Assembly: GCA_017446045.1 (NCBI GenBank)
Contig: JAFSRP010000050.1
Span: forward strand, 1 to 43,785
DNA from: Lachnospiraceae bacterium
GTDB taxonomy: Bacteria > Bacillota > Clostridia > Lachnospirales > Lachnospiraceae
Direction: 5' to 3'
Length of the DNA: 43,785 bases
In this document: one piece after another, positions 861-43,745 of the stretch
Numbering within the stretch: the first letter of the stretch is position 1
How the letters are laid out: each line of letters starts with the position of its first letter
The notes under the pieces: generated by a model
Seen by the model: only the letters and a program-made list of their open reading frames with translations
Databases searched by the model: none
Told to the model about the DNA's origin: nothing
Position numbers and translations under genes: made by a program

Positions 861-896
861 TAAGCTTAAAGCTTGAAGCTTAAAATAAATTTTCTC

Positions 897-925: not shown

Positions 926-976
926 TCGTGCGTTGACGTTGAAACAAATTTTTTACGGAGTCAACGAAAAGATTTT

Positions 977-1051: not shown

Positions 1052-1135
1052 ACTTTGTAATTTTCTTGGCACTGCGCGGAGTAGTGCCAATTATTAATTG
1101 CGGAACTATTTTTGACGCGAAAGGGCGGTGAAAAT

Positions 1136-1414: not shown

Positions 1415-1433
1415 CCAATTGAGCTATTCCCGC
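1397..1433 (-). pseudogene. tRNA-Gly (GCC), 5' half only, cut at the contig join
   Basis: Read from 1433 downwards: acceptor strand GCGGGAA, TA, D stem GCTC, D loop AATTGGCTA, D stem GAGC, then G and the 5' anticodon stem CCGCC, TT and anticodon GCC ending at 1397. The expected 3' half (loop AA, stem GGCGG, T arm, acceptor) is absent; from 1396 leftwards the sequence is ffh. It lies four bases after tRNA-Phe, as in a normal tRNA tandem, so the gene is probably intact in the real genome. Confidence 0.8.
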
Positions 1434-1437
1434 AGTA

Positions 1438-1513
<76 letters not shown>

Positions 1514-1558
1514 ATGTCGTTTGCGACCAGGATAATTTAGCACAGATCGCCCGGTTTG

Positions 1559-4375
1559 TCAATCACGGGAAGTCTGCGCTGACGGGCTTTGGCCTGAGGA
1601 TGACCGGAGCACCCTGTTCAGCTCCTTTACCAGCACGTTCACATCCACCGGCTTTGCGATGTGCGCCTGCATGCCGGCTTCCGACGCCTCCCTGATGTCC
1701 TCCGCGAACGCATTGGCTGTCATAGCCAGGATCGGGATCCCGGCAGCCGCCGGATCAGGCAGGGCGCGAATCGCCCTGGTCGCCTCATAGCCGTCCATGA
1801 CCGGCATCTGGATATCCATCAGAACCGCATCATAACAGTTCGGCGCTGACGCGGATACCATATCCACCGCTTCCTTTCCGTTGGACGCAGTCTCGACTGT
1901 AAAGCCCAACTGAGTCAGGATCATTTCCGCGATCTCCATGTTGATGAGGTTGTCCTCTACGAGGAGGACGCGCTTTCCTTCAAAGCCGGCCGTGTCTGTC
2001 TCCGTCTCTGTTTTCTCCTGTTTTGGAAGGTCGCTCTCCTCCGCCAGTCGGAACTTTACGCGAATGACCATTTTCGTGCCGCTTCCGGGAGATGTAAATA
2101 CTTCGATCGTTCCTCCCATCAGATCCACTATGCTCTTGGTAATGGAAAGCCCCAGTCCCGTGCCTTCCACCCCGCTGTTCGTGCTGGTCCGCTCCCTTTC
2201 AAAAGCCGTGAACATCTTCTCGACAAAGTCTTTCGACATGCCGATGCCGGTATCCTCCACCTGCACCTCGTAGCTGCCGTAGCCGTTTTCAATGCCGGCA
2301 TTCTCCCGCAGGGACACACTGACCGATCCGCCCTCCGGTGTAAACTTCCATGCATTGCTGATCACATTCATAAGTACACGGATCAGGTTCTTTCTGTCAC
2401 ACCAGACATACCTGTGCTGCACCTGTTCCGTATTCACCGTGAATCGCAGGCTTTTCTGTTCCATCTGGTCGGCAAAGAGAGCGCTTACGTCCTCAAACAC
2501 CGCATCAAGATCGGCGGGGACATACTCCTGTTTCAGGGTCCCGCTCTCAATGCGGCTCATTTCCAGAATATCGTTGAGCAGTATCATCAGATTCTTTCCC
2601 GAGGTATCGATCTTGGAAAGATACTCATGGAGCGTGTCCGGATCATTTTCCTTCATCGCGAGACCGGTATAGCCGATGATGGCGTTCATCGGCGTGCGGA
2701 TATCGTGGGACATATTGAAAAGGAACTGGCTTTTTGCAAGGCTTCCTTCCACGGCGCGGATCTTTTCCCGTTCAATGATCTCATGCTTTTTCCGAACCAG
2801 GTCCTGGATATGCATCATAGCCCCGAGACCGGTGAAAACGATAACCAGCAGCAGGATCCCGTTTCTGCTCAGCGTCCGCTGGACCGTCACATCCGCATTC
2901 CTTACGATCTGCTGTGCGATCCACATCAGTGACGAATACAGCAGCAGCGCAAATAATACAACTCCGGAAACGGACATGCCCGCAAACTCGGCCAAAGTGC
3001 TTTCAGAAACTGTCCTGAGATAGAAAACGAAGCCCAGGAGACACCATAAGGCCAGCAGCAGGAAAGCCTCGCTGCCCATGGTCTCCATTGCCGTCAGACG
3101 CGGGACGATCTGGACGATACCAAACAATACGGAAATGACGGCGCCTGCCAATCCGGACACAGCCGCTTTCCGGTCATTTTCGGCGCAGGCGATCCTGTAA
3201 GCCGCTGCAGATGTGTAGCCAAAACCGACGATGCCCCCAAAGGAAGTCAGGTCAACGAACCAGTTCAGCGTATTGCGCCCGAACAGCGACAGAAGGACGG
3301 AGATACCCATAATGAACAGGATGCTGTATTTCGTCTCCTTGAAGATCCCGGAAAGAATGTGGTCCTCCGCCATAGTGGAGAGGATCCGCATCGCGGCACG
3401 GTAAGCTCCGATAATGCCCGTAAAAATAGCCGAAAGGGCCGTGACACAGATCACGGCAAGTCCGGCATTCCCCATACGGGCCTGCGCAGCCATAAAAGTC
3501 GGGACAGATCTGATCCCTACGAGACTGTCGAGGTCCGCCATATACTCTCTCCAGGACGCATAGCCGTCCGGGACAAAGGAAACAGCAACGAGCGTCATAG
3601 CTGCATAGATCAGACCTGCAGTAATGATCGAAGAAGCAAGCACCATCCAGGTCTTTTTCATCGGGAAGGAAAAATGCGCGGTATCAAAGGCGGTCGTATC
3701 AAAACCCACGAACGCCCAGGGCGCAAGTATCACGACCGAGAAGATCCCGTAACCCCCGCTCACGCCTGCCGTCCCAAAGGAAGTAAGGACATCACCATTC
3801 AGTGCGTACGGGATGCATATGACGGAGATCACCAGCGCGCCTGCGACCAGCGTGAAGGCAAACACGGCAAATATCTTCTGAAGGAGCGGTTTTGCCGTGA
3901 TGAACAGGAATCCGACCCCGGCAAAAGCCAACACAGAAACCAGAACTTCCTTCAGGTAGATCTCATTGCCTGCAATTGTGTAGTGAAATCCGCCTACATG
4001 ACCGTCCATCATCGTCCGTACCACAATAAAAAGGGCTGTCCCGTTCAGGAATACGATCGTCAGATAAGACAGACACAAAAACCAGGAAGCTAGGAAAGCA
4101 TGGTCACGACCGAACGCTTCTTTCGTATAGGTATACACACTGCCGGTCCATGGGCTGCGCTCCATCAGATAAGCAAAATTCCTGCCGATCACCAGTATGA
4201 TGATAGTTCCGAGGACAAAAGCGATCAGCGTGCCAAACGGTCCCGCGACCGGAAGGAACACGGTCCCGGGCATGACAAATGCACCCCAGCCAACCATAAC
4301 GCCGATCGACAGGGCGAAAACATCGGCAACCGAAAGATATCTGTCCATTCCTTTCACATTTTGTGACTGTTCCAT
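1559..4375 (-). CDS. Amino-acid permease fused to a hybrid histidine kinase with receiver domain
   Basis: A 938-residue fusion. Residues about 12-455 form an APC-family amino-acid/polyamine permease, with the typical first helix (GVMVGWGAFVMPG) and about a dozen hydrophobic segments. Two more hydrophobic stretches follow (about 466-520). Next come a linker helix and a HisKA domain with phospho-acceptor His557 (NMSHDIRTP), a HATPase_c domain (N674 in the N box, DTGIGM at 708-713, GTGLGL at 738-743), and a receiver domain with Asp854 (VLMDIQMPVMDG) and the conserved Lys of AKP near 908. The start ATG 4375 follows GGGGAGA. It lies 45 bases after the second hybrid kinase and is the last gene of the long array. 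The likely role is a transport-coupled sensor, comparable in layout to CbrA, which uses an SSS transporter instead. No DNA-binding output is attached. Fusion and domains are clear; the ligand is unknown. Confidence 0.9.
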   Translation of the reverse strand: MEQSQNVKGMDRYLSVADVFALSIGVMVGWGAFVMPGTVFLPVAGPFGTLIAFVLGTIIILVIGRNFAYLMERSPWTGSVYTYTKEAFGRDHAFLASWFLCLSYLTIVFLNGTALFIVVRTMMDGHVGGFHYTIAGNEIYLKEVLVSVLAFAGVGFLFITAKPLLQKIFAVFAFTLVAGALVISVICIPYALNGDVLTSFGTAGVSGGYGIFSVVILAPWAFVGFDTTAFDTAHFSFPMKKTWMVLASSIITAGLIYAAMTLVAVSFVPDGYASWREYMADLDSLVGIRSVPTFMAAQARMGNAGLAVICVTALSAIFTGIIGAYRAAMRILSTMAEDHILSGIFKETKYSILFIMGISVLLSLFGRNTLNWFVDLTSFGGIVGFGYTSAAAYRIACAENDRKAAVSGLAGAVISVLFGIVQIVPRLTAMETMGSEAFLLLALWCLLGFVFYLRTVSESTLAEFAGMSVSGVVLFALLLYSSLMWIAQQIVRNADVTVQRTLSRNGILLLVIVFTGLGAMMHIQDLVRKKHEIIEREKIRAVEGSLAKSQFLFNMSHDIRTPMNAIIGYTGLAMKENDPDTLHEYLSKIDTSGKNLMILLNDILEMSRIESGTLKQEYVPADLDAVFEDVSALFADQMEQKSLRFTVNTEQVQHRYVWCDRKNLIRVLMNVISNAWKFTPEGGSVSVSLRENAGIENGYGSYEVQVEDTGIGMSKDFVEKMFTAFERERTSTNSGVEGTGLGLSITKSIVDLMGGTIEVFTSPGSGTKMVIRVKFRLAEESDLPKQEKTETETDTAGFEGKRVLLVEDNLINMEIAEMILTQLGFTVETASNGKEAVDMVSASAPNCYDAVLMDIQMPVMDGYEATRAIRALPDPAAAGIPILAMTANAFAEDIREASEAGMQAHIAKPVDVNVLVKELNRVLRSSSGQSPSAQTSRD

Positions 4376-4420
4376 GTATCCGACTTCTCCCCGGATCCCG
4401 CCAGACGGGACCCTTTGTTA

Positions 4421-7400
4421 TTATGGTCTGATCAGCGTTTCCAGTGTATCGAACAGGGCGTCCGGATCCACCGGTTTGGAAAGATGCGCATTGAGTCCCG
4501 CCTGCAGGCTCCGCTGCACGTCTTCGTCAAACGCATTCGCCGTCAGGGCGATGATCGGAATCTTCATCGCATCTTCGCGTCCGGAATCCCGGATGGCCTT
4601 CGTGGCGGTCAGTCCATCCATCTCGGGCATACGCATATCCATCAGGATCGCATCGTAGTAACCGGCTTCATGGCTTTCGTACTTATCTACGGCGATCCTG
4701 CCGTTTTCTGCCAGATCAGCCTCTATCTCCCGCATACTTAAGACCATGATCATGATCTCGGCGTTGACCGCAACATCCTCTGCCAGCAGAACGCGCCGTC
4801 CCTTAAGGTCCGCACGTTCCTGTATAAGGTCCCTGTTCTTTCTCTTGAAAGCCTCCCGGAATTCATCCATGACGCTTCCGGCAAAGAGCGGCTTCGGAAC
4901 GAAAGTATCCACGCCGGCAGCCCGCGCCTCATCAGCAATCTCGTCCCAGTTATAGGAGGTCAGGATGATGACCGGGGTCTCGTTTCCGACGATGGAACGT
5001 ATCCGGCGTGTCGTTTCTACCCCGTCCATATCCGGCATCTTCCAGTCTACCAGAAGCAGGTCATAGTCTTCTCTTCGCCCGTGACGCAGACGTACCTTCT
5101 CCACGCCTTCCTTTCCGGAAGCAGCAATATCACAGCTCACGCCGATCTGCTTTAATACGATCTGCGCATGCTCAAGGGCAATGGGATCATCGTCAATAAC
5201 CAGGACGCTCATATCTCTGGGGACCGCCTCGGCCTCCGCGTCCGCCCTGTTCCGGTGCGCGGCCTCCTCCAGGGTGACCGTGACCGTAAAGGTCGTACCG
5301 GAGCCCTTTTCGCTCTCCACCTCAATATGTCCGTTCATGAGCTCCACGATGCTCTTGGTGATCGGCATGCCAAGACCTGTACTGCCGTACCTGCTGGTGG
5401 AGGAAGAATCTTCCTGGCTGAAGGGATCAAAAAGGTGCGGCAGGAACTCTTTGCTCATGCCGATACCCGTATCGGAAATAACGAATTTCAGCGTTACCTG
5501 GCCCTTATAACGCCGTTCTTCCTTTATCAGGAAGGTCACGGAACCGCCCCGCGGGGTGAACTTGACGGCATTGCTCAGAATATTGATCATGACCTGTTTC
5601 AGCTTCATGCCGTCGCCGATATAGTGATCATCGATCGTTCCGACAGAATGGCAGTCGTAATTCAGCCCCTTTTCGGCGCACTGTCCGCTGATGATGGTGT
5701 TGACCTGCTCAAGATTCTTAGCGAAAGAGAACTCTTCATTCTTGATCACCATCCGCCCGGACTCGATCCGGGACATATCCAGAATATCATTGATGATCCC
5801 CAGAAGATGCTGTGCCGAATCACCCATCATCTTCAGGTGTCCCCGTACCTTTTCCGGGACATCCGGCTCATTGAGGGCAATATTGTTAAGGCCGATGATC
5901 GCGTTCATCGGTGTACGGATCTCATGGCTCATGTTGGAGAGGAACACCGTTTTGGCTTTGCTCGCCTGCTCCGCCGCAGCCAGTGCTTCCGTCAGGGCCT
6001 GCTGCTGGGCAAGATCCTTACGGGTCTCCGTATCCACATTCATGAAGCAGGCACCCACATTGTGGACTACATTGTCATCCCGGTCCTCAGGATGGCGAAC
6101 GCCGGCAAAACGGACTGCCTCCCATGATTCCGCCCCGCCCACGCTGATCATGTACCGGTAGGAGATCACCAGGTTCTCCTTCAGGCTTTCACGGATGGCG
6201 TCGGGTTGGATGAAACGCAGAAACTCCTCCCGATATTCCGGCAGGACATACTGATTGCAGTATGCGGTCACAGCCTCCAGGTAGGGGAAGTCTTCCCCGG
6301 CCTTAAAGCCGTCCAGATCGCTGCGGGACTGGTAACAGATGCCGTGATTCTTATCCAGTTCCAGGTAATATACACTGCGGTAATCGGAAGCCAGCGCAAC
6401 GATCATTTTTTCCTGCTGCTCCCTTTCGGCCTTCTGCCGGAGGATCTCTTCCTGCAGCTCCAGTCTGTGCTCCATCTCCTCATGCTTGATCCGGCTCTCC
6501 ACCTCAGCGGTCTCCTTTTCAAGCGCAAGTGCCGCATTCTTCCGCAGCTGCATGATGAGATACGCGAACATCATCCCCAGCACCAGAGCAGTCACAGCAG
6601 ACAGGATAACGCTCCGCAGAATGATCCCGGAAGACACCGCGCTGATCCTGTCATTGATCGCCTTTTCCCGAACCAGATACGTGAGGAGCCAGTTCGTCCC
6701 ATTCACAGGGACATAACTTAGCGTCTCGTCGATACCGTTATAAGTAAAAGAAACAGTGCCCTTCCTGCCTTCGGCAAAATCACTGATGACCTTTTCCACC
6801 GTGGACCCGTCCTTGTACTCCGCGTGACGCAAGGCCTCCAGAAGATTATCTTCCACAGCAAGACCTCCGAGCACAGTATTGCTGAGTGCGATGCCGTCGG
6901 AGGTGTAAATGTTGCAGAATGTAAAATCAGAATCCTGCGAGCCCATGGAAACACCGGACAGCATGTTGTCCATATCGATCTCCATATAACAGGCTACAAG
7001 ATGTCTGTCGCCGACATAAAGATCCCGGTCTCTGGTCGGCGCCGCGATGATCACCTTTTTATCGATGCTGTCCAGATTCCGGACGAAGACCAAAGGCTCC
7101 GAAATCGTTTTATAATCGAAGGAATACCGGTCGATGTCATTCTGGATACCCTCATCTGCCGTATAAACAAAACCGTCCTCATCCACGAACGCAAAGCGTT
7201 CCAGTTCAAACAGCAGCTTCAGCCGCCGCTGGTAGTCGCTCAGATGTTCGGGATCCTGGAGATCTGCTTCATTCAGCAGTCCAAGCGCAACATCGATAAC
7301 ACGGATGTTGTTATTGATGTTGTTCTTCACCACCTGTTCCCGGCGGCCTGCAAGCTCATCCAGGTACAGCCGGCTTACGGATCTTGCCGCTTCCACGGTA

Positions 7401-7513
7401 TCCTTCTGCGCGCTTCGTCCGGTCCAAAGCGTCCCGGCGATCAGCATCAGCACAACGAGAAGGATGCCGGCTGCAGCGATGCGTGTTGTTCGGTTGTTCT
7501 GCACGCTATTCAT
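4421..7513 (-). CDS. Membrane hybrid sensor histidine kinase with two receiver domains
   Basis: A 1030-residue sensor. TM1 is at residues about 12-31, followed by an extracytoplasmic domain of about 260 residues resembling double-Cache sensors, and TM2 at about 298-321. A charged coiled coil (325-370) and a PAS-like region (about 375-500) follow. The HisKA domain has His530 (NMSHEIRTP); HATPase_c has N648, DTGIGM and a G-rich lid. Receiver 1 has Asp823 (LLLVDWKMPDMDG) and Lys874. Receiver 2 has Asp959 (ILMDMRMPEMDG) and Lys1013. The start ATG 7513 is chosen because GGAGGAA lies six bases before it; an upstream in-frame extension would overlap mobA. The gap to mobA is 16 bases, suggesting co-transcription. 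There is no Hpt or DNA-binding domain, so the output partner lies elsewhere. Confidence 0.9.
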   Translation of the reverse strand: MNSVQNNRTTRIAAAGILLVVLMLIAGTLWTGRSAQKDTVEAARSVSRLYLDELAGRREQVVKNNINNNIRVIDVALGLLNEADLQDPEHLSDYQRRLKLLFELERFAFVDEDGFVYTADEGIQNDIDRYSFDYKTISEPLVFVRNLDSIDKKVIIAAPTRDRDLYVGDRHLVACYMEIDMDNMLSGVSMGSQDSDFTFCNIYTSDGIALSNTVLGGLAVEDNLLEALRHAEYKDGSTVEKVISDFAEGRKGTVSFTYNGIDETLSYVPVNGTNWLLTYLVREKAINDRISAVSSGIILRSVILSAVTALVLGMMFAYLIMQLRKNAALALEKETAEVESRIKHEEMEHRLELQEEILRQKAEREQQEKMIVALASDYRSVYYLELDKNHGICYQSRSDLDGFKAGEDFPYLEAVTAYCNQYVLPEYREEFLRFIQPDAIRESLKENLVISYRYMISVGGAESWEAVRFAGVRHPEDRDDNVVHNVGACFMNVDTETRKDLAQQQALTEALAAAEQASKAKTVFLSNMSHEIRTPMNAIIGLNNIALNEPDVPEKVRGHLKMMGDSAQHLLGIINDILDMSRIESGRMVIKNEEFSFAKNLEQVNTIISGQCAEKGLNYDCHSVGTIDDHYIGDGMKLKQVMINILSNAVKFTPRGGSVTFLIKEERRYKGQVTLKFVISDTGIGMSKEFLPHLFDPFSQEDSSSTSRYGSTGLGMPITKSIVELMNGHIEVESEKGSGTTFTVTVTLEEAAHRNRADAEAEAVPRDMSVLVIDDDPIALEHAQIVLKQIGVSCDIAASGKEGVEKVRLRHGRREDYDLLLVDWKMPDMDGVETTRRIRSIVGNETPVIILTSYNWDEIADEARAAGVDTFVPKPLFAGSVMDEFREAFKRKNRDLIQERADLKGRRVLLAEDVAVNAEIMIMVLSMREIEADLAENGRIAVDKYESHEAGYYDAILMDMRMPEMDGLTATKAIRDSGREDAMKIPIIALTANAFDEDVQRSLQAGLNAHLSKPVDPDALFDTLETLIRP

Positions 7514-7529
7514 GTGAAGTTCCTCCGTT

Positions 7530-8141
7530 TCATGATCCCGAATCAGCCTTCCTGTTTTCTCGGGATCCATCTCCATTCCCGGCATACATCCGGTACTCTT
7601 CCGGTGTATTGATATTGACAAAGGACTGCCTGTCGCCAATCTGCACGACATTTCCTCCGAATGCCGAAAAGAGATCTCTCGCCCTGTAATGACCATTTTC
7701 CAGCATTTCTACTGCAGTCTCAAGCACTGTCCTCGGGTAGATGCCGAACAGCGGCTCCAGAAGATCTCCGTTCGCCGCAAGCAGGATCCCATCCCGCCCC
7801 GCATACGACTCCAGCATGCGCCGTACAGCTTCCTTCGTTACAAACGGCATATCGCATGCTACGACAAAAAGGGCGTCTTCTTCACACGCCATAAGCCCGG
7901 ATGCGATCCCCCCGAGAGGCCCGCATCCGGGAAACTTATCTTCTATCATCGGGAGTCCCAGCTCCCGGTACTTCTCTTCCCTGTCAACGGAAAGATATAC
8001 CCTGTTGAATCCTTCGAAAGCGTCCAGGATGCGGGAGGCAAAACTCCTGCCCTCACACTCAAGAAGGATCTTCCTGCGGTTTCCGAAACGTGTGGACATC
8101 CCGCCGCTTAAGATCAGCAGTGCGATACTTTTCTCCGGCAT
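7530..8141 (-). CDS. mobA: Molybdenum cofactor guanylyltransferase (MobA-like)
   Basis: Attaches GMP to molybdopterin to make the (bis-)MGD cofactor of DMSO-reductase-family enzymes; cytosolic. The nucleotide-binding signature is LILSGGMSTRFGNRRK, a variant of the family LxGGxSxRxGxxK. The GPLGG loop and CDMPF (with the metal-binding Asp) follow, and the C-terminal NINTPEEY is characteristic. It has about 203 residues, the usual size. The start ATG 8141 lies four bases after the stop of the upstream amidohydrolase, implying translational coupling; an earlier in-frame start would run back into that gene. Its place a few genes after a molybdopterin oxidoreductase fits a dedicated cofactor supply. 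A related nucleotidyltransferase such as MocA is less likely, given the NTPEE end and context. Confidence 0.85.
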   Translation of the reverse strand: MPEKSIALLILSGGMSTRFGNRRKILLECEGRSFASRILDAFEGFNRVYLSVDREEKYRELGLPMIEDKFPGCGPLGGIASGLMACEEDALFVVACDMPFVTKEAVRRMLESYAGRDGILLAANGDLLEPLFGIYPRTVLETAVEMLENGHYRARDLFSAFGGNVVQIGDRQSFVNINTPEEYRMYAGNGDGSRENRKADSGS

Positions 8142-8145
8142 CGCG

Positions 8146-9330
8146 TCAGCCCAGGAAATCCGCGGCGACCTGCGCATAGACCAGGGCACCGTTCAGCAGC
8201 GCACTCTCATCCACCTTATAATGGCAGCTGTGCTGCGGATACACGGCATCGCAATCTGCATTGCCTACGCCGACAAATGCCATAACACCCGGGATCCGCT
8301 TCTGGTACTCGGAAAAGTCCTCCGCGACCGGGGTCGGCTTCATGTGTCCGAGCAGCGCCTCGCCGCCGACCTTACGCACCGATCCTCGCACCAGCTCGGT
8401 CATTTCCTCATCGTTAACTACTGGACCCAACAGGTAAGTATATTTCATTTCTGCCTTCGCACGGTAGGCTGCTGCCGTGTTTTCGGCGACCCGGCGGATC
8501 ATATCCGCCCAGGCATCATCCACGGCGCGGGAGAAGGTACGGGTCGTACCCTCCATATATCCTTCTGCCGGAATGATATTAAAGGCGGATCCGCTCTCCA
8601 TGTGGCCGATGGTCAGTACAGAAGGCTCCTGGGTATCGATCTCGCGGCTCACGATGGACTGCAGATTCATTGCGATCGCCGCCGTCGTCAGCAGCGGATC
8701 CACGCTCTTATGCGGTTCTGCCCCGTGCCCGCTTATACCTTTTACAAAGATCTCAAACTTGGAGCCTGCCGCCATGACCGACCCCGGATCAACCGCGATC
8801 GTTCCTGCCGGAAGTGTTGCCCAGACATGGGAAGCATAGCAGGCATCCACTCCTTCGAGCACCCCGTCCGCGATCATCATGCCGGCGCCGCGCCCGATCT
8901 CCTCCGCGGGCTGGAATACGACCCGGACCGTACCGGACAGTTCCTGCCGGAGATCCTGCAGGATCCGGGCAGCTGTCAGCAGGATAGCGATATGGCAGTC
9001 ATGTCCGCAGGCGTGCATGACACCGTCATTGACGCTGGTATAGGAATATCCTGTTTCCTCCACAATGGGAAGAGCGTCCATATCCGCACGCAGCATGATC
9101 GTCCTGCCGGGTCTGCCGCCTTCGATCGTCCCCACAACACCGTTGCTGCAGGGCGTTCCGACGTGACGGCACGGGATCCCGAATGATTCCAGCTCTTCTT
9201 TGATCTTTTTTCCGGTCTCTTCTTCTTTCAGACTCAGTTCAGGATGCTGATGAAAGTACCTTCTCATTTCGATCAGGTAATCGCGGTATTTCTCACCACA
9301 CGCTTTGATCTTCTCTGTCATTCCTGACAT
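8146..9330 (-). CDS. M20D amidohydrolase (N-acyl amino acid / hippurate hydrolase-like)
   Basis: A cytosolic dinuclear metal hydrolase that removes acyl or aryl groups from N-acylated amino acids. It has 394 residues, the normal size. The N-terminal motif is RRYFHQHPELS; metal-site motifs are RADMDALP (about 81-88), HACGHD (106-111) and PAEE (141-144). The dimerisation insert is in the middle, and near the C-terminus comes the His of the CHYKVDE region. The start ATG 9330 follows GAGGTGA with good spacing; a second Met four codons in is possible. It sits 21 bases after the FAD reductase gene and is coupled to mobA. Context suggests it releases or processes the substrate of the redox enzymes, but specificity in M20D cannot be read from sequence. 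Confidence 0.88.
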   Translation of the reverse strand: MSGMTEKIKACGEKYRDYLIEMRRYFHQHPELSLKEEETGKKIKEELESFGIPCRHVGTPCSNGVVGTIEGGRPGRTIMLRADMDALPIVEETGYSYTSVNDGVMHACGHDCHIAILLTAARILQDLRQELSGTVRVVFQPAEEIGRGAGMMIADGVLEGVDACYASHVWATLPAGTIAVDPGSVMAAGSKFEIFVKGISGHGAEPHKSVDPLLTTAAIAMNLQSIVSREIDTQEPSVLTIGHMESGSAFNIIPAEGYMEGTTRTFSRAVDDAWADMIRRVAENTAAAYRAKAEMKYTYLLGPVVNDEEMTELVRGSVRKVGGEALLGHMKPTPVAEDFSEYQKRIPGVMAFVGVGNADCDAVYPQHSCHYKVDESALLNGALVYAQVAADFLG

Positions 9331-9351
9331 ATGCGTTCACCTCGGTTCTGC

Positions 9352-10641
9352 TTACAGGATCACTGCACGCCGTTCCTTACGTAGCCAGTATATCACATCC
9401 GTGATCGTCATTTCATCCAAATGTTCCGGTTTTTTTACAAGCCGGCATTTCCGGTCGCGCTCCAGTGCGTTTTTGGTGATCACATCAAAGAGAAGGTCCA
9501 CGTCGTCCAGCGTATTGATCATTTGAACACCGCAGAGCAGCCCATCTTCAAAATGCAGCCTTCGGTAGACCTTTCCCTTCCTTTCTTCCAGGACTAAACC
9601 TTTCAGCGGATCCAGCTCCGCCTCGGTCTTGCCGAATCCGACGATCGAAAGTCCGCCTTTATGTGTCAGAAAGACCGCCACCGACCCTCCCCAGGCTTTA
9701 TCCAGCCCGGCACAGTTCAAACCCGCGACGGTGCCGCCCCTCTGCGCAGGCTCCCAGAAAAGGTGCACAGCCGGCTTTCCGCTCAGTTTGTCAACAGACT
9801 CTATACAGTCTCCGCAGGCATAGATATGCGGTACATTGGTACGCATGCGGTCGTCGACCCTGACCGCTCCGAGTTCTCCCAGTTCGATCCCTGTAGTCTT
9901 CGCCAGCTCCACATCCGGACGCATACCGATACCCCAGAGAATAATGTCGCACGGAATCGTCCTGCGGGAAGTGACGACACCTTCGACTTTCGTTTCCCCG
10001 ATAACGCCTTCCACCGCTTCTCCGGCAAGTACCTCGATCCCGAACGCATTGAGATTGGCCGTCAGCTCGTCTGACATTGCTTTATCAAGCGACTTCGGGC
10101 TCAGCCAGTCCAAAGCCTCTACCATTGTCACCTTTTTGTATCCGCGTGCTTTGAGCGCCATACTGCCTTCCAGCCCGATGGCGCCCGATCCGACCACGAC
10201 GGCATTTTTACCGCCGTAGGCGATCATCGCATCGATATCTCCGACGGTCTTCATCACAAAATTACCGGGAAGATCCGTACCCTTCATCCGCCGAAGCTGA
10301 ATAGGAAGACTGCCTGTCGCAAGGATCAGATTTTCATATCTGAAAGACTTGCCGCTTTCTGTCTTCACCACGCGCTTTTTAGGGTCGATCCGGGCCACCG
10401 TATCATTCAGGTGCAGGCGGATCCCCTCCCTGTCATAGTCCTCCTTTGTACGGACCATGACCTTATCAAGCTCCAGCTCCCCGGAAAGATAGTCAGGGAG
10501 CGCCGGGGCGGAATACTCCGTCCGGTTTTCCTTCCCGATGATCAGGACAGACAGTCCGGGATCCGCCCTGCGGGCTGCGAAGGCGGCGCTCGTACCGGCG
10601 GCACCGCTGCCGATGATCAGCAGGTCCACACGTTCTGTCAT
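9352..10641 (-). CDS. FAD/NAD(P)-dependent pyridine nucleotide-disulfide family oxidoreductase
   Basis: A soluble flavoprotein that moves electrons between NAD(P)H and Fe-S proteins. It has 429 residues. The FAD site is IIGSGAAG (residues 9-16), the NAD(P) site VVGSGAIGLE near 160, and the second FAD contact YACGDC near 280, followed by a C-terminal dimerisation domain. It lacks the CxxxxC redox disulfide of lipoamide-dehydrogenase types, so it resembles the reductase parts of nitrite reductase, rubredoxin reductase or NADH oxidase. The start ATG 10641 follows AAGGAGG and overlaps the stop of the upstream ferredoxin gene by four bases (ATGA). The overlap with an Fe-S gene, downstream of a molybdoenzyme, suggests it is the NAD(P)H-facing subunit of that complex. 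Confidence 0.88.
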   Translation of the reverse strand: MTERVDLLIIGSGAAGTSAAFAARRADPGLSVLIIGKENRTEYSAPALPDYLSGELELDKVMVRTKEDYDREGIRLHLNDTVARIDPKKRVVKTESGKSFRYENLILATGSLPIQLRRMKGTDLPGNFVMKTVGDIDAMIAYGGKNAVVVGSGAIGLEGSMALKARGYKKVTMVEALDWLSPKSLDKAMSDELTANLNAFGIEVLAGEAVEGVIGETKVEGVVTSRRTIPCDIILWGIGMRPDVELAKTTGIELGELGAVRVDDRMRTNVPHIYACGDCIESVDKLSGKPAVHLFWEPAQRGGTVAGLNCAGLDKAWGGSVAVFLTHKGGLSIVGFGKTEAELDPLKGLVLEERKGKVYRRLHFEDGLLCGVQMINTLDDVDLLFDVITKNALERDRKCRLVKKPEHLDEMTITDVIYWLRKERRAVIL

Positions 10642-11294
10642 ACCTTGTCCTCCTTTCCGGTTTCTTCTTCCCGGATCCGGCGGCTCCATTTCTTAAGCTG
10701 GGCCGGGCTCACCTTCTTCCCAAGCTCCGCACCGATCGTTTCAGAGATCTTTTTCCACTGCGCGGATTCTTCCGCTTTGGTCAGTGTCACTGGCGTATGC
10801 CGCAGCACCGTTCCCGGGACGACAGGAACGCCGGGCTGGCCGAGTGCCATCCTGGCATACCTCGTACGTATCGCTTCGCTGCTCTCCTGTACATCCGCAT
10901 AACCGAGTGCTCCGGTGGGACAGACCTTCACACATACCGGGTCACCGCCGCATAAGTCACAGGTCACGAAAGCCTTCAGCTCCTCGTCCAATACAGCCGC
11001 TCCGATGGGGCACATGACGTGGCAGGCCGCGCAGCGGAAGCAGTCCTCAAAATGTCTCCGAACCACGCCGGTCTCCGGATCTTTTTCTATGATCCCCCTC
11101 ATGCATGCCGTAACGCAGACCGGCTCCTCGCAGTGCTGGCAGACGGCTGCCCTGAGCGGGATGCCGTCCCCCGCGGTCTGGATCCGTATCCTGGCTTGCC
11201 CGGGATCGATCCGGTCTTTTTTGGACAGTGAGCACACGATCTGGCACGCACCGCAGTAATTGCATCTGGTTTGATCGTATGTTAACAGTTTCAT
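10638..11294 (-). CDS. Polyferredoxin with four 4Fe-4S sites (CooF/HycB-like)
   Basis: An electron-transfer protein of about 218 residues, soluble. Four cysteine clusters are visible: CNYCGACQIVC near the N-terminus, CQHCEEPVCVTAC, CFRCAACHVMC, and CDLCGGDPVCVKVC followed by PTGAL. A charged C-terminal tail of about 90 residues is not ferredoxin-like and may dock a partner. The start ATG 11294 is preceded by GGGAGG. It lies 16 bases after the other ferredoxin gene and its stop overlaps the FAD reductase start, so the three are surely co-translated. It probably bridges the FAD reductase and the molybdoenzyme module. Confidence 0.87.
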   Translation of the reverse strand: MKLLTYDQTRCNYCGACQIVCSLSKKDRIDPGQARIRIQTAGDGIPLRAAVCQHCEEPVCVTACMRGIIEKDPETGVVRRHFEDCFRCAACHVMCPIGAAVLDEELKAFVTCDLCGGDPVCVKVCPTGALGYADVQESSEAIRTRYARMALGQPGVPVVPGTVLRHTPVTLTKAEESAQWKKISETIGAELGKKVSPAQLKKWSRRIREEETGKEDKV

Positions 11295-11310
11295 CTCCCG
11301 AACCTCCCGG

Positions 11311-11838
11311 TTAATCCAGCTTGTCAGCGTAACCGCCCATCCTGTTTGCATCCTTTGCGTAACGCTCCCTCAGGATGCGGGAGACATTCTCTACCGTATC
11401 GCAGAGGATCGCTTCTGCAGGACAGTTATGTGCGCAGGCGGGCTCCCCGCCCTCATCGATCCTGTTAAAGCACATGGTACATTTCTGCATGAGGCCGTTG
11501 GACCCGAACTGCGGAATACCGAACGGGCACGCCCAAAGACACTCGTGGCACCCGATGCACCGTTCCTGCTCCGAAAGGACGATGCCGTCCTCCCTCTTGA
11601 ACAGGGCACCCGTGGGACAAGCTCTCACACACGGAGCATCCCCGCAGTGCTGGCAGGGCATGGGAAGGAAATTCAGTCTTTCCTCGGTGCCTTCACCGGT
11701 CTCCACCTCTGTGACCATGGTAAAGCGCGGTCCCGCAGGAAGGTCGTTTTCCAGCTTGCAGACCGTCTCACAGGCACGGCATCCCATGCATCTTCTGGTA
11801 TCGATATACAGCGTGCGCTGTTGCATAAAATCCGTCAT
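11311..11838 (-). CDS. 4Fe-4S electron-transfer subunit (DmsB/NrfC-like)
   Basis: A 175-residue iron-sulfur subunit typical of DMSO-reductase-family complexes. Cluster motifs in order: CMGCRACETVC (from residue 17), CQHCGDAPCVRAC, CIGCHECLWAC and CTMC with CAHNC after an 11-residue spacer. The start codon shares one base with the stop of the molybdoenzyme gene (TAATG), and GGAGG of the preceding coding sequence acts as ribosome binding site, so the two subunits are made in fixed ratio. No Tat or Sec signal and no membrane anchor is present here or next door, placing the complex in the cytosol. Confidence 0.92.
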   Translation of the reverse strand: MTDFMQQRTLYIDTRRCMGCRACETVCKLENDLPAGPRFTMVTEVETGEGTEERLNFLPMPCQHCGDAPCVRACPTGALFKREDGIVLSEQERCIGCHECLWACPFGIPQFGSNGLMQKCTMCFNRIDEGGEPACAHNCPAEAILCDTVENVSRILRERYAKDANRMGGYADKLD

Positions 11839-14081
11839 TACTGCTCCGCCTCCTTCTTATCCTCCATCTTCCGGATCTCCACCAGTGTATTGAAATACGA
11901 TCCGGTATTGCCGTCCAGAAGCGGATTGTAATCATACAGGATCCCGTCTTCCGCAAGAATGTCACGGGGGCCTGCCGGGACCAGCTTCGTCAGCTTATTG
12001 ACGCTGCCGCCAAGCTTCACCCACATGCCGCTGGACATCTCCACGACGCCGGGCTTCAGGCGGATGCCCACCCGCGCGACGATGTTTTCCAGCTCGCCCC
12101 GGTCGTTGAAGATCCGGACTCTGTCGCCATCCGCGATCCCGCGATCCTTTGCGTCTTTCCGGCTCATGAACACTCTCGCGGGACCCTCGATCTCACGGAT
12201 CCAGGGCAGGTTATAATACTGCGAATGCGTCCGGAACGAGGGATGCTGAGAAATGATATTCAGGGGGTATTTTTCAGCCAGCTCCGGGGTGGCCGCAACG
12301 CTCTCATCCGGCTCGTAATAACGCGGAAGCGGATCGTAGTGTCCCGGATACTTCTTTCCCCGTTCTTCAAGGACGGAAGAATGGAACTCAAACTTGCCCG
12401 AAGGCGTATCGAAGCTCTGATAGGGTACTTCGGGACACCATTTCTCCGGATTTCTGGCCGGTCCGTTCGGAGAGACCATCGAGTCAAAATCACATTCCTT
12501 CCCGATCAGCATCCGGCAGTAATCCAATCCGGTGCGTTTCTTCGGGAAATACCGTCCGTAGCCGAGACGTCTTCCCAGTTCCTCGAAGATCTCGATATCC
12601 GGCACGCACTCATATGGCGGCTGGACCACGGGGACCAGGATCTGGTTATAATTATGCCAGTAGGACGGGTGGACGCCGTACTGCTCAAGGTAGTGGCAGC
12701 CCGGCAGCACCAGGTCGGCGTAGTCCGTGTCATCCGTCATGAACTGCTCGATCGTCACGAACATATCCAGTTTCTTAACGGCTTCAATCGTGTAGTCAAC
12801 ATCCGGCTGCTGGGAGATCAGGCCGCCGCGGTAGGAGATCACTCCGCGGATCGGAGGCTCTTTGGCCTCGTGGATCGCACGCGCGATCGCGGCAATATTG
12901 ATCATGCGTGCCGGCGGGATCTTCGCCCTCTTCGGAACGCTGACTGCCGCCCCGTCCGCAAATCCTGTGATCCCGGGGAAGGCCATGCCGGAAATACAGT
13001 CGTAGTTGGCAGACTTCTTACCGAAACTGCCGCAGACGGCCGCGAGACATGCCAGTGCCTGCTGCACCTGATGTCCGTTGGAATAGCGCTGCTGCCCGTA
13101 TCCTGTCTCGAACATGGTCTCGGTCTTCGCCAGCAGCTCTGCCGTCTCGATCAGCTGCGCCTTCGGGATCGTAGTCACTTCCTCCGTATACTCCGGCGTC
13201 CACGGCTCCACGAGTTCACGAAGCTCCTCGATGCCTACCGTCTTCTCCGCAATGAACTCCTTATCTTCCAGTCCCTGCTTCAGGATCCAGTGGATCATGC
13301 CGAGCGCCATGGCGCCGTCCGTTCCGGGACGGGGACGCAGATGGATGTCCGCCTTTCCGGCCACGCCGGTGGCATAGGGATCGACCACTACGATCTTTGC
13401 GCCTCTTTCCTTTGCCTTATACAGGAACGGGAAGATGTGCGGATTGGTCGCGGTACAGTTGCGTCCTACCAGGAACAGGGTCTCACAGTTTTCCGCCCAG
13501 TACTCCGGGTCCATGGTAAACTGGCTTCCCACGGTGCCTACAGACCCCGCAACACCGGAAAGCAGGCAGAAGCTGCCCACCAGTTTCGACGCGCCCATCA
13601 GGTTCCAGAGCCTTCCCGCCACAGACTTTGCCATGTGTTCCCGGTTTCCGGAGTAACAGTACTCGATGATCGCTTCCGGACCGTATTCGGCCTGGATAGA
13701 TCGGATCTTATCCACCATCCAGTCCAAAGCCTCGTCCCAGGTGATCCTTTTGAACTTGCCCTCTCCGCGCTTTCCTGTGCGAAGCAATGGGTACTTGACG
13801 CGGTCAGGGCTGTTGATCTTCTGGACATTGGCAAAACCCTTCAGGCAAAGATGACCCCTGGTGATCGGATGCTCCGGGTCACCTTCGATCTTGATCACCT
13901 TTTCATCTTTGACATATACCAGCTCGCCGCAGGTATCATAACAGTTGTGGGGACAGCAGGTCTTGACGACCCGGTCCGCGATCACCTTTTTTCCGCCGAT
14001 CCAGACCGGGACATTTTTCTTCCAGGCATACTTGTCCAGGTTCTCATGCTTTCTCCATGGTATCGGATTGTAGGTCTCCAT
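11838..14081 (-). CDS. Molybdopterin oxidoreductase, DMSO-reductase family, cytosolic catalytic subunit
   Basis: A 747-residue Mo/W-bis-MGD enzyme. The N-terminal 4Fe-4S ligands are C43, C47, C51 and C79. The Molybdopterin domain follows to about residue 530, and the molydop_binding domain is near 610-730, with RTHSQYYN and the VRIFNDRGE region. The Mo ligand should lie around SFCLLSGVAG: Cys172 fits the formate-dehydrogenase/nitrate-reductase pattern, but Ser175 cannot be excluded. There is no twin-arginine signal, so it works in the cytosol. The start ATG 14081 is 41 bases after the lipoamide dehydrogenase gene. It is followed by two ferredoxins and a flavin reductase, giving a plausible NAD(P)H-to-Mo chain. 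The substrate is unknown: formate, oxyanion, aromatic or N-oxide chemistry are all possible, and I see no basis to choose. Confidence 0.9.
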   Translation of the reverse strand: METYNPIPWRKHENLDKYAWKKNVPVWIGGKKVIADRVVKTCCPHNCYDTCGELVYVKDEKVIKIEGDPEHPITRGHLCLKGFANVQKINSPDRVKYPLLRTGKRGEGKFKRITWDEALDWMVDKIRSIQAEYGPEAIIEYCYSGNREHMAKSVAGRLWNLMGASKLVGSFCLLSGVAGSVGTVGSQFTMDPEYWAENCETLFLVGRNCTATNPHIFPFLYKAKERGAKIVVVDPYATGVAGKADIHLRPRPGTDGAMALGMIHWILKQGLEDKEFIAEKTVGIEELRELVEPWTPEYTEEVTTIPKAQLIETAELLAKTETMFETGYGQQRYSNGHQVQQALACLAAVCGSFGKKSANYDCISGMAFPGITGFADGAAVSVPKRAKIPPARMINIAAIARAIHEAKEPPIRGVISYRGGLISQQPDVDYTIEAVKKLDMFVTIEQFMTDDTDYADLVLPGCHYLEQYGVHPSYWHNYNQILVPVVQPPYECVPDIEIFEELGRRLGYGRYFPKKRTGLDYCRMLIGKECDFDSMVSPNGPARNPEKWCPEVPYQSFDTPSGKFEFHSSVLEERGKKYPGHYDPLPRYYEPDESVAATPELAEKYPLNIISQHPSFRTHSQYYNLPWIREIEGPARVFMSRKDAKDRGIADGDRVRIFNDRGELENIVARVGIRLKPGVVEMSSGMWVKLGGSVNKLTKLVPAGPRDILAEDGILYDYNPLLDGNTGSYFNTLVEIRKMEDKKEAEQ

Positions 14082-14122
14082 GCTGCTTGTTCAACCTTTC
14101 TGCTTTATTAAAAACGGGTCAC

Positions 14123-16027
14123 TTATTTATAATGGATCGCGCGCTTTTCCACCGCAAGGGCGGCTTCCTTCATGGCTTCCGCCACAGTGGGGTGCGCGTG
14201 GATCGTGTGGATCAGATCGCTTACCGTAGCACCCATCTGCATGGCCATAGCTGCTTCGGCGATCAGGTCTGTCACTCTCGGCCCGAGGATATGGACGCCC
14301 AGGATCCGGCCGTTCTCCTTATCCGCCAGGATCTTGATCCATCCGTCGGTCTCTTCCATGATCAGCGACTTGCCGTTGGCTTTCAGAGGGAACCTGCCCG
14401 TTCGGTACTTCGATTCCTCTGCCTTCAGCTGCTCCTCGTTAAGTCCGACACAGGCGAACTCGGGCAGCATGTAAACGCAGGACGGGCAGACCCGTTCGTC
14501 ATAGACCGCGTCCTGTCCCATGGCATTCTCCGCCGCGACCTCTCCCATGACGGAAGCGGTATGGGCCAGCATGATCCTGCCGACACAGTCACCGATGGCG
14601 TATACATCCGGGATATTCGTTTCCATCTTATCATTGACGACGATGTGCCCGCGCTCTGTAACAATCCCTGCCGCTTCAACGGCAAGTGTGTCCAGAATAC
14701 TCTTTCTTCCGACGGCGACCAGCACCTTATCCGCTGTAAAGACCTTCTCTGTTCCGTCTTTCAGCAGTGTCACGACTTCGGTGCCGGCGCTGCTCTTCCG
14801 GAACTCCGTCACCTTCGTCTCCAGGTAAAACTCGATACCGCGCGCGGTCATCAGATCCTGGGCGATCTTCGTCAGCTCGAGATCCATGACAGGCATCAGA
14901 CGGTCCATCATCTCCACGATCGTAATCTTCGTGCCCATCGCCGCGTAAGCGCAGGCCAGCTCGATGCCGATCACGCCGCCGCCGATGATGATCATCGAAG
15001 ACGGAAGACTCTCCAGCATCAGGGCTCCGGTAGAGTCGATGCAGCCCTCATTATCTTTCAATCCGGGAATCGGGGGTATCACCGGCCCGGAGCCGGTCGC
15101 GATAATGATCTTATCCGGCTCGAGCGTCGTATCTTTGCCATCCATCTGTACAGCAAGCTTTTTCTGACCGGCAAACTTCGCCGTTCCTTTGATCACCGTC
15201 ACACCATTGGCGGTCAGAAGTCCCTCCACACCTGCGATCAGCTTGTCGGAAACGCCCTGCCGGTAGGCTTGTACAGCTTTCCAGTCGAGACGTACGTTAT
15301 CCGCAAGTACACCCGACGCCGCGCTATTAAGTGCGGTTTGATAATTCTCTGCGCTGTGCAGCAATGCTTTCGTAGGAATACATCCGGCGTTAAGGCACGT
15401 GCCCCCGATGCGCCCCTTTTCGATCAGTGTGACGTCCGCTCCCAGCTGAGCAGCCCGGATGGCAGCCACATAGCCGCCCGGACCGCCGCCGATCACAGCG
15501 ACTTTGGTCCTGGGTGCCTCCGGTCCGATCATGGTCCCGTCCGCGGTGATCCTCGCCACAACGCTTCCCTTCGCCGCAGCAGTGCCTGTCTCTGCGAGGA
15601 TCTCCTGCAGCGTACCACCATATGGGCTGGAGATATCCGTACTTAACTTTCCGGCTTCAGCTGAAACGATCGGTTCACCGGGCCGTACATCGTCTCCCGG
15701 TTCTTTATACCATTCTTTGATTATAGCAGACTTTCCGCTGATCCGGTCCAGAATCACATCGACCATGGTCCCCGCCGCAACGGGAACAGGACCGTCCGGC
15801 TTTTCCTCTGCGTCGATCCTGCAGATCAGCGCTCCGCCGGGCACAGCATCCCCCGGCTGTACCAGAAGCTCTGTCACAACACCATCAAACTTACTTGTAA
15901 CGGTGCGTTTCATGGTGCCGAGCTTCACCATGCAAAGTACGGAACCACTTTCCACACGGTCTCCCGCCGCAACTTTCCATTCCAGAAATACAGTGTCCAG
16001 TTTTGCGGCCTTGATCTCCTGAATCAT
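14123..16027 (-). CDS. lpdA: Dihydrolipoamide dehydrogenase with two N-terminal lipoyl/biotinyl-type domains
   Basis: A 634-residue fusion. Domain 1 (about 1-72) is a biotinyl/lipoyl fold with a non-standard hairpin (KLGTMKRT, Lys40). Domain 2 (about 83-162) has a canonical lipoyl hairpin, EAGKLSTDI, with Lys127 as modification site. From about residue 175 comes E3: FAD motif VIGGGPGGY, redox disulfide Cys211/Cys216 (GGTCLNAGCIPTK), NAD motif IIGGGVIGIE, YAIGDC, and the C-terminal catalytic dyad His612/Glu617 (HAHPTVAEA). E3 usually reoxidises lipoamide in 2-oxoacid complexes, but no E1 or E2 genes are near. It follows an AhpD-like gene, so the lipoyl arm may pass electrons to AhpD. The start ATG 16027 follows GGAGGAAAG. 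Confidence 0.92.
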   Translation of the reverse strand: MIQEIKAAKLDTVFLEWKVAAGDRVESGSVLCMVKLGTMKRTVTSKFDGVVTELLVQPGDAVPGGALICRIDAEEKPDGPVPVAAGTMVDVILDRISGKSAIIKEWYKEPGDDVRPGEPIVSAEAGKLSTDISSPYGGTLQEILAETGTAAAKGSVVARITADGTMIGPEAPRTKVAVIGGGPGGYVAAIRAAQLGADVTLIEKGRIGGTCLNAGCIPTKALLHSAENYQTALNSAASGVLADNVRLDWKAVQAYRQGVSDKLIAGVEGLLTANGVTVIKGTAKFAGQKKLAVQMDGKDTTLEPDKIIIATGSGPVIPPIPGLKDNEGCIDSTGALMLESLPSSMIIIGGGVIGIELACAYAAMGTKITIVEMMDRLMPVMDLELTKIAQDLMTARGIEFYLETKVTEFRKSSAGTEVVTLLKDGTEKVFTADKVLVAVGRKSILDTLAVEAAGIVTERGHIVVNDKMETNIPDVYAIGDCVGRIMLAHTASVMGEVAAENAMGQDAVYDERVCPSCVYMLPEFACVGLNEEQLKAEESKYRTGRFPLKANGKSLIMEETDGWIKILADKENGRILGVHILGPRVTDLIAEAAMAMQMGATVSDLIHTIHAHPTVAEAMKEAALAVEKRAIHYK

Positions 16028-16049
16028 ACTTTCCTCCTGCTGATAAGAT

Positions 16050-16089
16050 GCCCGGAATACGGAGCCGCCTCGCGGTTCCGTTTCCGGGC
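16050..16089. repeat. Strong hairpin between the ahpD-like gene and lpdA
   Basis: GCCCGGAA at one end pairs with TTCCGGGC at the other, continued by ACGGA/TCCGT and an inner CCGC/GCGG, with minor mismatches. There is no U-tract on either side, so it is probably not a full terminator. It may be a processing or partial attenuation point setting the ratio of the first gene to the rest. Confidence 0.6.
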
Positions 16090-16123
16090 GTATTCGGTCA
16101 GTCTGTACTATGATGATTTACGA

Positions 16124-16477
16124 TCAGTCAAAATCGTGTTCAAACTCATCGAGTGCCGCGTTCAGTACAGAAGCGCTGTACGCTACGCTCGGTCCGCCGC
16201 CGAATGTGATCGCAACTTCCGCAGCCGCAAGGATCTCCGCGCGGCTTGCGCCTGCCTGATATGCGCCGCGCGTATGTACGCAGATGCAGTACTGGCAACG
16301 GTTGTAGATACCGATCGCTACACAGATCAGCTCCTTGGTCTTGTCATCGATCACGCCGCTGCCGCTTCCGGCAAAACCATCGATATCGACGAATTTTCCT
16401 ATAAAATCACCGTTGGTCTCGGAAAGTTTGCCTACACCATTGACAAAATCGTTGAAAATCTCTCTTGCGTTGATCAT
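16124..16477 (-). CDS. AhpD-like alkylhydroperoxidase (carboxymuconolactone decarboxylase family)
   Basis: A small (117 aa) cytosolic all-helical protein. It has the complete AhpD peroxidase motif E-X11-C-X2-C-X3-H: Glu49, Cys61, Cys64 and His68. This is the redox signature rather than a lactone-decarboxylase one. In Mycobacterium, AhpD is reduced by a lipoylated protein and dihydrolipoamide dehydrogenase; here the next gene encodes a dehydrogenase carrying lipoyl domains, which supports the same chemistry. The start ATG 16477 follows AAGGAGG; an extension to 16531 has no such site. It is the first gene of the array and is divergent from the LysR gene. The length is shorter than classical AhpD (about 175). 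Confidence 0.88.
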   Translation of the reverse strand: MINAREIFNDFVNGVGKLSETNGDFIGKFVDIDGFAGSGSGVIDDKTKELICVAIGIYNRCQYCICVHTRGAYQAGASRAEILAAAEVAITFGGGPSVAYSASVLNAALDEFEHDFD

Positions 16478-16541: not shown

Positions 16542-16574
16542 ATACATTATAGTATGTATGGGTAATTATGACCA
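16542..16574 (-). promoter_or_regulatory. Promoter of the redox array, with overlapping 18-bp dyad
   Basis: Minus strand: -35 TGGTCA (16574-16569), 17-base spacer, perfect -10 TATAAT (16551-16546). The dyad ATACAT-N6-ATGTAT (16542-16559) covers the -10 box. It lies about 70 bases before the first gene and faces a LysR gene, so a LysR-type or other dimeric regulator binding here is plausible. Confidence 0.6.
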
Positions 16575-42401: not shown

Positions 42402-42416
42402 AATCAGCCTCCTTTT

Positions 42417-43706: not shown

Positions 43707-43745
43707 AATACTGCTGTAACTCCCCAAAGAGTTTCTCTCAAGAGA

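Follow-up and report, generated by a model that had tools for sequence, protein, structure and literature searches.

A rare clade of predicted cytosolic molybdoenzymes is encoded together with AhpD and lipoyl proteins in gut Lachnospiraceae and other Bacillota

We analysed a stretch of 43,785 nucleotides (the window), contig C25 of the 2.26 Mb assembly of a Lachnospiraceae bacterium (here G000; 63 contigs, 78.9% complete). It carries a run of ten genes, of which the first six encode an AhpD-like protein, a fusion of lipoyl domains with dihydrolipoyl dehydrogenase (E3), a molybdoenzyme of the DMSO reductase family (MopB), two iron-sulfur proteins (FeS1 and FeS2) and a probable NADH flavoprotein (FAD protein). 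These six genes constitute a conserved core. The clade to which this MopB belongs goes with lipoyl proteins and AhpD, a central feature that was overlooked by the initial annotation, made from the letters of the window and a list of its open reading frames.

The genes that recur near the MopBs of this clade encode AhpD, a lipoyl-E3 or GcvH-like protein, MopB, FeS1, FeS2, sometimes an AFOR_N protein, and the FAD protein. AhpD and a lipoyl protein are found near MopB in all 6 clade genomes that were read, a seventh (G1068) being left out. The contig of G299 stops inside FeS1, that of G300 ends 247 bases past the flavoprotein gene, and the cluster of G301 is split across two contigs. The control consisted of 23 of the 24 best-ranked other MopB places (the second place in G1016 was left out), read over stretches of about 20 kb in 20 cases and of 6.7, 11.9 and 14.3 kb in the remaining three. 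Only AhpD, lipoyl or GcvH-like proteins, lipoate ligase, LipS and AFOR_N were scored. With tblastn at 1e-6, none of the 23 neighbourhoods gave a match to AhpD, a lipoyl domain, a GcvH-like protein, lipoate ligase, LipS1, LipS2 or AFOR_N. The same stretches contain FeS1-like matches (5/23), FAD-protein-like matches (3/23) and a generic flavoprotein similarity to E3 without the lipoyl part (4/23, 62-72 bits). Within the genomes read, MopB is firmly associated with AhpD and a lipoyl partner.

MopB scores above the cut-offs of PF04879 (Fe4S4), PF00384 (Molybdopterin) and PF01568 (Molydop_binding). No Tat-like leader was seen by eye, and the enzyme is predicted to be cytosolic. Its Fe4S4 motif reads CPHNCYDTC. 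Cys172, in the motif FCLLSG, is probably the molybdenum ligand: it is invariant among the 5 full-length clade MopBs aligned and superimposes in the alignment on the cysteines of FdhF (7qv7) and of 2vpw, at what we take to be the position of the amino-acid ligand. The following residue is Leu173, a leucine in all 5 clade members and a histidine in the FdhF of 7qv7. Histidine directly after the ligand Cys or Sec is, we assume, a feature of formate dehydrogenases, and this identity was rejected for MopB because of the leucine. The best NCBIfam match is TIGR02166 (DmsA-YnfE); at 311.6 bits it falls far below the cut-off of 777.7, for which reason DmsA/YnfE proper (the DMSO/selenate reductase subfamily) was also rejected. 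The second-best solved relative is the 2vpw chain, labelled thiosulfate reductase.

In a tree of 34 MopBs, seven form one clade with a support of 100/100 and a stem of 1.07 changes per column. Those of G299 (L003, a Lachnospiraceae metagenome-assembled genome), G300 (L004) and G301 (L005), the latter two assembled from metagenomes as Anaerotruncus, are 78-84% identical to the MopB of the window. Those of G722 and G935, elsewhere in the phylum, are 65-67% identical, and G1068 holds a fragment. The best relatives outside the clade are at most 37% identical in the search of the phylum sample. The clade is rare, with 7 genomes found. Close relatives were detected in 1/299 genomes of the family and 1/391 of the class (the genome itself in both cases), in 3/398 of the phylum (itself, G722 and G935), in 2/22 of the class of G935 (G935 and G1068) and in 1/3 of the class of G722 (G722); these samples overlap and their thresholds differ, "close" meaning at least 65% identity in the search of 398 genomes. 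A scan of a collection of 84,980 species, which reaches close relatives only, returned 3 further MopB loci.

The AhpD of the window has E49, the pair C61-x-Y-C64 and H68, all invariant among the 5 clade members aligned; presumably these Glu, CxxC and His residues are functional residues of the peroxidase type. A domain scan of the operon revealed no peroxiredoxin or AhpC gene among its ten genes. The E3 fusion matches TIGR01350 with 540.5 bits (cut-off 408.8) and keeps the C-L-N-x-G-C motif; in lipoyl domain 2 the expected position is occupied by a lysine (AGKL). In both flavoproteins of the core, the second NAD-fold strand terminates in a glutamate (VEALD and VEMMD, by eye), so NADH fits as their cofactor. 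The AhpD of the window is 37.5-53.5% identical to AhpDs from 13 loci outside the clade and only 38-39% identical to those of G722 and G935, although the MopBs of these two share 65-67% identity with that of the window. The contrast hints at an exchange in which one AhpD-lipoyl pair replaced another of the same kind, a suggestion that draws on identities only since the backbone of the AhpD tree does not resolve.

FeS1 resembles DmsB, although its score against TIGR02951 (138 bits) is below the cut-off of 214. The best solved relatives of FeS2 are 9mqx_E, 8c0z_C and 6x6u_B, the Fe-S subunits of aldehyde oxidoreductase (AOR) complexes. Residues 8-405 of the FAD protein, nearly its full length, align with the FAD subunit 8c0z_E, although the scores of NADH oxidases are higher. 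By these alignments, FeS2 and the FAD protein appear to resemble the NAD module of AOR. An extra AFOR_N gene, coding for a truncated AOR subunit, is found in 4 of the 6 clade genomes (G300, G301, G722 and G935), and no AFOR match was obtained among the ten window genes in a Pfam scan. The extra proteins of G300, G722 and G935 (L004, L079, L080) match solely the AOR N-terminal domain PF02730, and that of G301 is 66% identical to that of G300. The solved relatives of the G722 protein are 9mqx_D, 1aor and 8c0z_A. No catalytic AOR domain was matched in these proteins of about 300-400 residues. We infer that an AOR-type NAD module may have been joined to a DmsAB-like pair, with the truncated AOR subunit as scaffold.

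To follow lipoate through the clade, the six whole genomes were searched with Biotin_lipoyl and GCV_H. In G000 and G299 these searches gave no lipoyl-type domain apart from the E3 of the cluster. Their other Biotin_lipoyl matches are, by eye, a biotin carrier (EAMKM) and an HlyD-like protein; the biotin carrier of G000 also accounts for a weak GCV_H match. G300 and G301 each have one GcvH in addition to the cluster E3. Each of the four gut genomes (G000, G299, G300 and G301) encodes one full lipoate ligase. It is located away from the cluster in G000, among genes for MobB, MoaA and a molybdopterin-binding protein in G299, and in a group with a MobA-like gene and a MarR gene, divergent from the cluster, in G300 and G301. 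Lipoate-ligase and molybdenum-cofactor genes thus lie together in 3 of the 4 gut genomes. In the distant members G722 and G935, the lipoyl partner is a GcvH-like protein accompanied by LipS1-, LipS2- and lipoate-ligase-like genes. In the G935 stretch the LipS1 match is above and the LipS2-type matches are below cut-off, and counterparts of these genes were identified in G722 by tblastn. The window operon contains no GcvH-like or LipS gene.

Pairs of AhpD and a lipoyl protein also exist outside the clade. Used as a query, the AhpD of G722 matched 15/398 genomes at 1e-18. Excluding G722 and G935 leaves 13 AhpD loci that lie outside the clade, and ten of them have a lipoyl gene adjoining or near AhpD: seven have lipoyl-E3 fusions, L171 combines an 80-residue lipoyl protein and a lipoate ligase, and the remaining two are E1/E2 operons. 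L153, where the lipoyl-E3 gene is 1.4 kb away behind another gene, was counted as a hit; L159 (read over 3.3 kb only), L163 and L165, with no lipoyl gene in the stretch read, were counted as misses. The lipoyl domain of the seven fusions is confirmed by Pfam in six and by alignment in L157. Two of these seven loci adjoin a lipoate ligase and some have a MarR-like gene. From these loci, AhpD is probably a general lipoyl-thiol adaptor, the role that an AhpD-like protein has for NADH/Lpd/SucB in Corynebacterium (PMC10460364), the MopB clade being among its users.

Several of these loci deserve description. L170, L172, L171 and L174 are compact modules of AhpD with lipoyl-E3 or the 80-residue lipoyl protein. 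A lipoate ligase or a MarR-like gene accompanies some of them, and no molybdoenzyme was seen near them. L166 (G967, 1172-12814) and L167 (G1058, 1-15579) are E1alpha/E1beta/E2 operons with AhpD, a GcvH-like protein and lipoate ligases. L166 continues with GlcD-like and CCG proteins, and L167 with HdrC-, HdrB- and HdrA-like proteins; L167 additionally has LipS1/LipS2-like genes and a geranylgeranyl-reductase-like (LipT-like) flavoprotein. No E3 match of at least 50 bits was obtained in either stretch, and an Hdr-linked re-oxidation of dihydrolipoate is possible in these operons. In G722, AhpD, GcvH-like, GlcD-like and CCG genes follow the FAD gene in an order that differs from that of L166, with a radical-SAM-like gene between. 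The sequence S-G/A-K-W-V/A-G surrounds the lipoyl lysine in 5/5 aligned GcvH-like proteins from such clusters (G722, G935, G1058 and two from G967), while 5 other GcvH proteins from the whole-genome search have K-A or K-S instead.

The reading that we put forward, tentatively, is that of an NADH-fed molybdoenzyme with two arms, in which a lipoyl-AhpD dithiol relay would serve one substrate pathway. The first six genes would encode a single cytosolic redox system. In one arm, judging from the protein families, electrons would pass from NADH through the FAD protein, FeS2 and FeS1 to the molybdenum centre at Cys172. In the other, the E3 flavoprotein would take electrons from NADH and hand them to the lipoyl arms fused to it, which in turn would reduce the CxxC cysteines of AhpD. 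Both arms would serve one pathway, most likely reductive: MopB would reduce a small cytosolic acceptor, and the lipoyl-AhpD relay would provide thiol electrons, either to complete the reaction or to regenerate the enzyme. The direction, the electron order and the contact between the arms are what we infer. A bolder form of the proposal, which we regard as doubtful, is a lipoate-dependent molybdoenzyme whose molybdenum centre would receive electrons, or even the substrate, from the lipoyl arm and AhpD. More widely, AhpD with either a GcvH-like carrier bearing the S-G/A-K-W-V/A-G sequence or a lipoyl-E3 would then serve anaerobic Bacillota as a general dihydrolipoyl relay, able to take the place of lipoamide dehydrogenase and joining Hdr-type, GlcD/CCG-type or molybdenum enzymes to lipoyl chemistry.

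Several observations weigh against the two-armed system. The clade has few members, and those from the gut are known from fragmentary assemblies. In G935, about 7.7 kb with apparently unrelated genes separate MopB from the AhpD-GcvH block. The first lipoyl domain of the window E3 reads GTMK and has lost the usual lysine position. With G000 at 79% completeness and no completeness stated for G299, further lipoyl proteins may have been missed, and the substrate and direction are beyond what sequence can tell. Finally, AhpD-lipoyl pairs occur without MopB in 10/13 loci, so that AhpD and MopB may be neighbours rather than partners. In the strongest rival, which we consider possible yet rather improbable, AhpD and lipoyl-E3 would be an ordinary NADH-dependent thiol peroxidase or reductase module beside an oxygen-sensitive molybdoenzyme, linked to it by protection or shared control with no electron exchange. 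The seven loci in which AhpD and the fusion stand alone, with their occasional lipoate ligase or MarR-like gene, fit this explanation, as do the MarR genes beside the G300 and G301 clusters and the reduction of an AhpD-like protein by NADH/Lpd/SucB in Corynebacterium glutamicum, described in an excerpt of PMC10460364. However, the pairing is kept in 6/6 clade genomes read with differing lipoyl carriers, it is absent near 23/23 other MopBs that are presumably equally oxygen-sensitive, and the operon shows no peroxiredoxin gene.

The lipoyl arm might instead carry the substrate itself, for example bound sulfur or another group, to the molybdoenzyme, as proposed for LbpA in sHdr sulfur oxidation. 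We consider this unlikely, even though the GcvH-like, LipS1-, LipS2- and ligase-like genes of G722 and G935 are the set that accompanies sHdr-LbpA in the excerpts of PMC10332631 and PMC6067878, both genomes have a CCG (HdrB-like) gene, and 2vpw, with its thiosulfate reductase label, has a cysteine at the ligand position. L084 and L085 each contain one CCG HdrB-like gene and a small Fe-S gene, without HdrA by eye in these stretches; the absence of an HdrA-like gene and the single HdrB/HdrC-like pair in the G722 and G935 stretches (by eye) speak against such carriage, and the E3 fusion of the gut clade suits dithiol cycling better. Very improbable, in our view, is the pathway proposed by the initial annotation, an inducible deacylation of an amino-acid-like compound followed by NAD(P)H reduction and sensed by two kinases. 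The amidohydrolase, MobA and kinase genes do follow the core on the same strand, spaced by 4-45 bases, but none of the cluster loci in G301, G722 and G935 matched the amidohydrolase or a kinase, and in 11 loci permease-kinase fusions lack MopB-core genes. The supported part of this pathway is a cytosolic molybdoenzyme with a probable NADH-linked chain; the deacylation step lacks support.

Table 1. Features of the window.
Feature	Position	Strand	Basis
AhpD-like CMD protein	16124..16477	-	PF02627, TIGR00778; alignment of 5 clade members
Two lipoyl domains + dihydrolipoyl dehydrogenase (E3) fusion	14123..16027	-	TIGR01350; alignment
MopB, DMSO-reductase-family molybdoenzyme, 747 residues	11838..14081	-	Pfam, alignment, tree
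FeS1, DmsB-like ferredoxin-type subunit	11311..11838	-	PF13247; TIGR02951 below cut-off
FeS2, like Fe-S subunits of aldehyde oxidoreductase complexes and PadI	10638..11294	-	Solved relatives; NF045766 below cut-off
FAD protein, PadH/AorC-like, Pyr_redox_2; probable NADH dehydrogenase subunit	9352..10641	-	8c0z_E alignment
M20 amidohydrolase, outside conserved core	8146..9330	-	TIGR01891
MobA-like NTP transferase (molybdenum cofactor)	7530..8141	-	PF12804
Hybrid histidine kinase, two receiver domains, accessory	4421..7513	-	Domain scan
Hybrid histidine kinase with fused amino-acid permease domain, accessory; type recurs in family	1559..4375	-	Domain scan
Promoter-like site before ahpD gene, weak evidence	16546..16574	-	10/12 match
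LysR regulator, divergent; any link to cluster hypothetical	16827..17807	+	PF00126, PF03466

The initial annotation had described all ten genes as one redox and sensing array. Its gene calls are confirmed: the ten open reading frames run on the minus strand from 16477 to 1559, and the family names it gave hold for all ten in Pfam and NCBIfam scans (FeS2, MobA and the first kinase were scanned from starts 3-25 codons upstream of the preferred ones). As it had also noted, no gap exceeds 96 bases and genes overlap; from the likeliest starts, by eye, the gaps are 96, 41, -1, 16, -4, 21, 4, 16 and 45 bases. Nor did we find a described pathway with this gene set in the open-licence literature of PubMed Central (PMC). 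The array as a unit did not survive the search for the same gene order in other genomes that the annotation had suggested: the core recurs, but only these first six genes do so together, and one conserved ten-gene pathway was rejected on that ground. With no kinase match in the MopB loci of G301, G722 and G935, a sensing part of the system is not supported either. The promoter-like site is weak because the region holds 17 such matches against 8.8 in shuffles (standard deviation 2.9).

The amidohydrolase scores 371 bits against TIGR01891 (cut-off 153.75). Ties to ectoine or selenium (YgeY) families were rejected, as their matches are below cut-off only; another M20 gene, at 19463-20677, is likewise below the YgeY cut-offs. 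Neither the amidohydrolase nor either kinase gave a match of at least 55-60 bits (tblastn) in the MopB loci of G301, G722 and G935; G299 and G300 are uninformative here, given where their contigs stop. These three genes appear to be local additions to the cluster. The MobA-like protein is below the MobA equivalog cut-offs, and MobA-like genes adjoin the clusters of G300 and G301 too.

The permease part of the second kinase matched 24/150 genomes of the family, its own included. Thirteen loci were fetched: 11 encode permease-hybrid-kinase fusions similar over nearly their full length by tblastn (L037-L045, L047, L048) and 2 encode permease-GGDEF proteins, L046 with a PAS domain and L049 with receiver and EAL domains. 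In L043, three regions similar to the first kinase precede a permease-kinase. As no MopB-core gene of at least 60 bits was detected in the fetched loci (tblastn), permease-kinases appear to be a recurrent sensor type of the family, outside this system. No description of such fusions with Lachnospiraceae was found in open-licence PMC literature. In L026, L027 and L029, an amino-acid permease domain is in frame with an iron-type alcohol dehydrogenase (by Pfam in L026, by eye in the others).

Ornithine-cyclodeaminase- and threonine-dehydratase-like genes near the G301 cluster were set aside as a substrate hint, being seen in one genome only. An NhaC-like transporter (by eye) at 33658-35025 of the window is 72% identical to one beside the G301 cluster (L034, 6283-7638), which may point to a shared substrate or merely to a common transporter. 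The window also encodes a metallo-beta-lactamase-fold protein with a C-terminal rubredoxin domain (32372-33313) and ResB and CcsA-type cytochrome c assembly proteins (41586-43727), all by Pfam; the latter are unexpected in a gut fermenter of the Lachnospiraceae type.

An excerpt of PMC10332631 lists 2-oxoacid dehydrogenases, glycine cleavage, reactive-oxygen defence and sHdr sulfur oxidation as known settings of lipoate, and no lipoate-molybdoenzyme cluster was found described in open-licence PMC literature. If our proposal holds, lipoate would gain a new client in a molybdoenzyme clade whose representatives, in the gut and elsewhere in the phylum, retain lipoyl partners. This would explain why the gut fermenters G000 and G299, where our searches gave no further lipoyl-type protein, hold a lipoate ligase, and it would make the search for a substrate concrete, namely a cytosolic NADH-driven reaction that needs both molybdenum and lipoate. 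The E1/E2 operons without E3, with AhpD, GcvH-like and HdrABC- or GlcD/CCG-like genes, would represent a new route of dihydrolipoate re-oxidation.

Each part of the system has a known counterpart. With the DMSO-reductase-family enzymes that have a Cys ligand (the thiosulfate/polysulfide reductase 2vpw and formate dehydrogenases), MopB shares its three Pfam domains, Fe4S4 motif and aligned cysteine, but it forms a separate clade beside AhpD and lipoyl genes. FeS2 and the FAD protein are like the Fe-S and FAD subunits of the aldehyde oxidoreductase complex 8c0z, which we take to be AorABC, and the AFOR_N protein of 4 clade genomes resembles the first domain of its large subunit; here, however, a DMSO-reductase-family enzyme replaces the catalytic AOR, and the window lacks even AFOR_N. 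Another counterpart is the AhpD/SucB/Lpd thiol system of C. glutamicum, and that of Mycobacterium tuberculosis, with AhpD, a lipoyl E2 (SucB) and Lpd, is presumably of the same kind. In the former, according to the excerpt of PMC10460364, the Cys pair of AhpD is reduced by NADH via a lipoyl protein and E3, and the lipoyl-E3 fusion adjoining AhpD in the window would be a putative equivalent reductant. The window differs in fusing the lipoyl domains to E3, with neither E2 nor AhpC in the operon, and in joining them to a molybdoenzyme. Finally, G722 and G935 share with the sHdr-LbpA/LipS1/LipS2/sLpl(AB) system, as excerpted from PMC10332631, a GcvH-like carrier with its own lipoate-assembly genes, whereas the clade has a MopB complex and AhpD, and its gut members use a lipoyl-E3 fusion.

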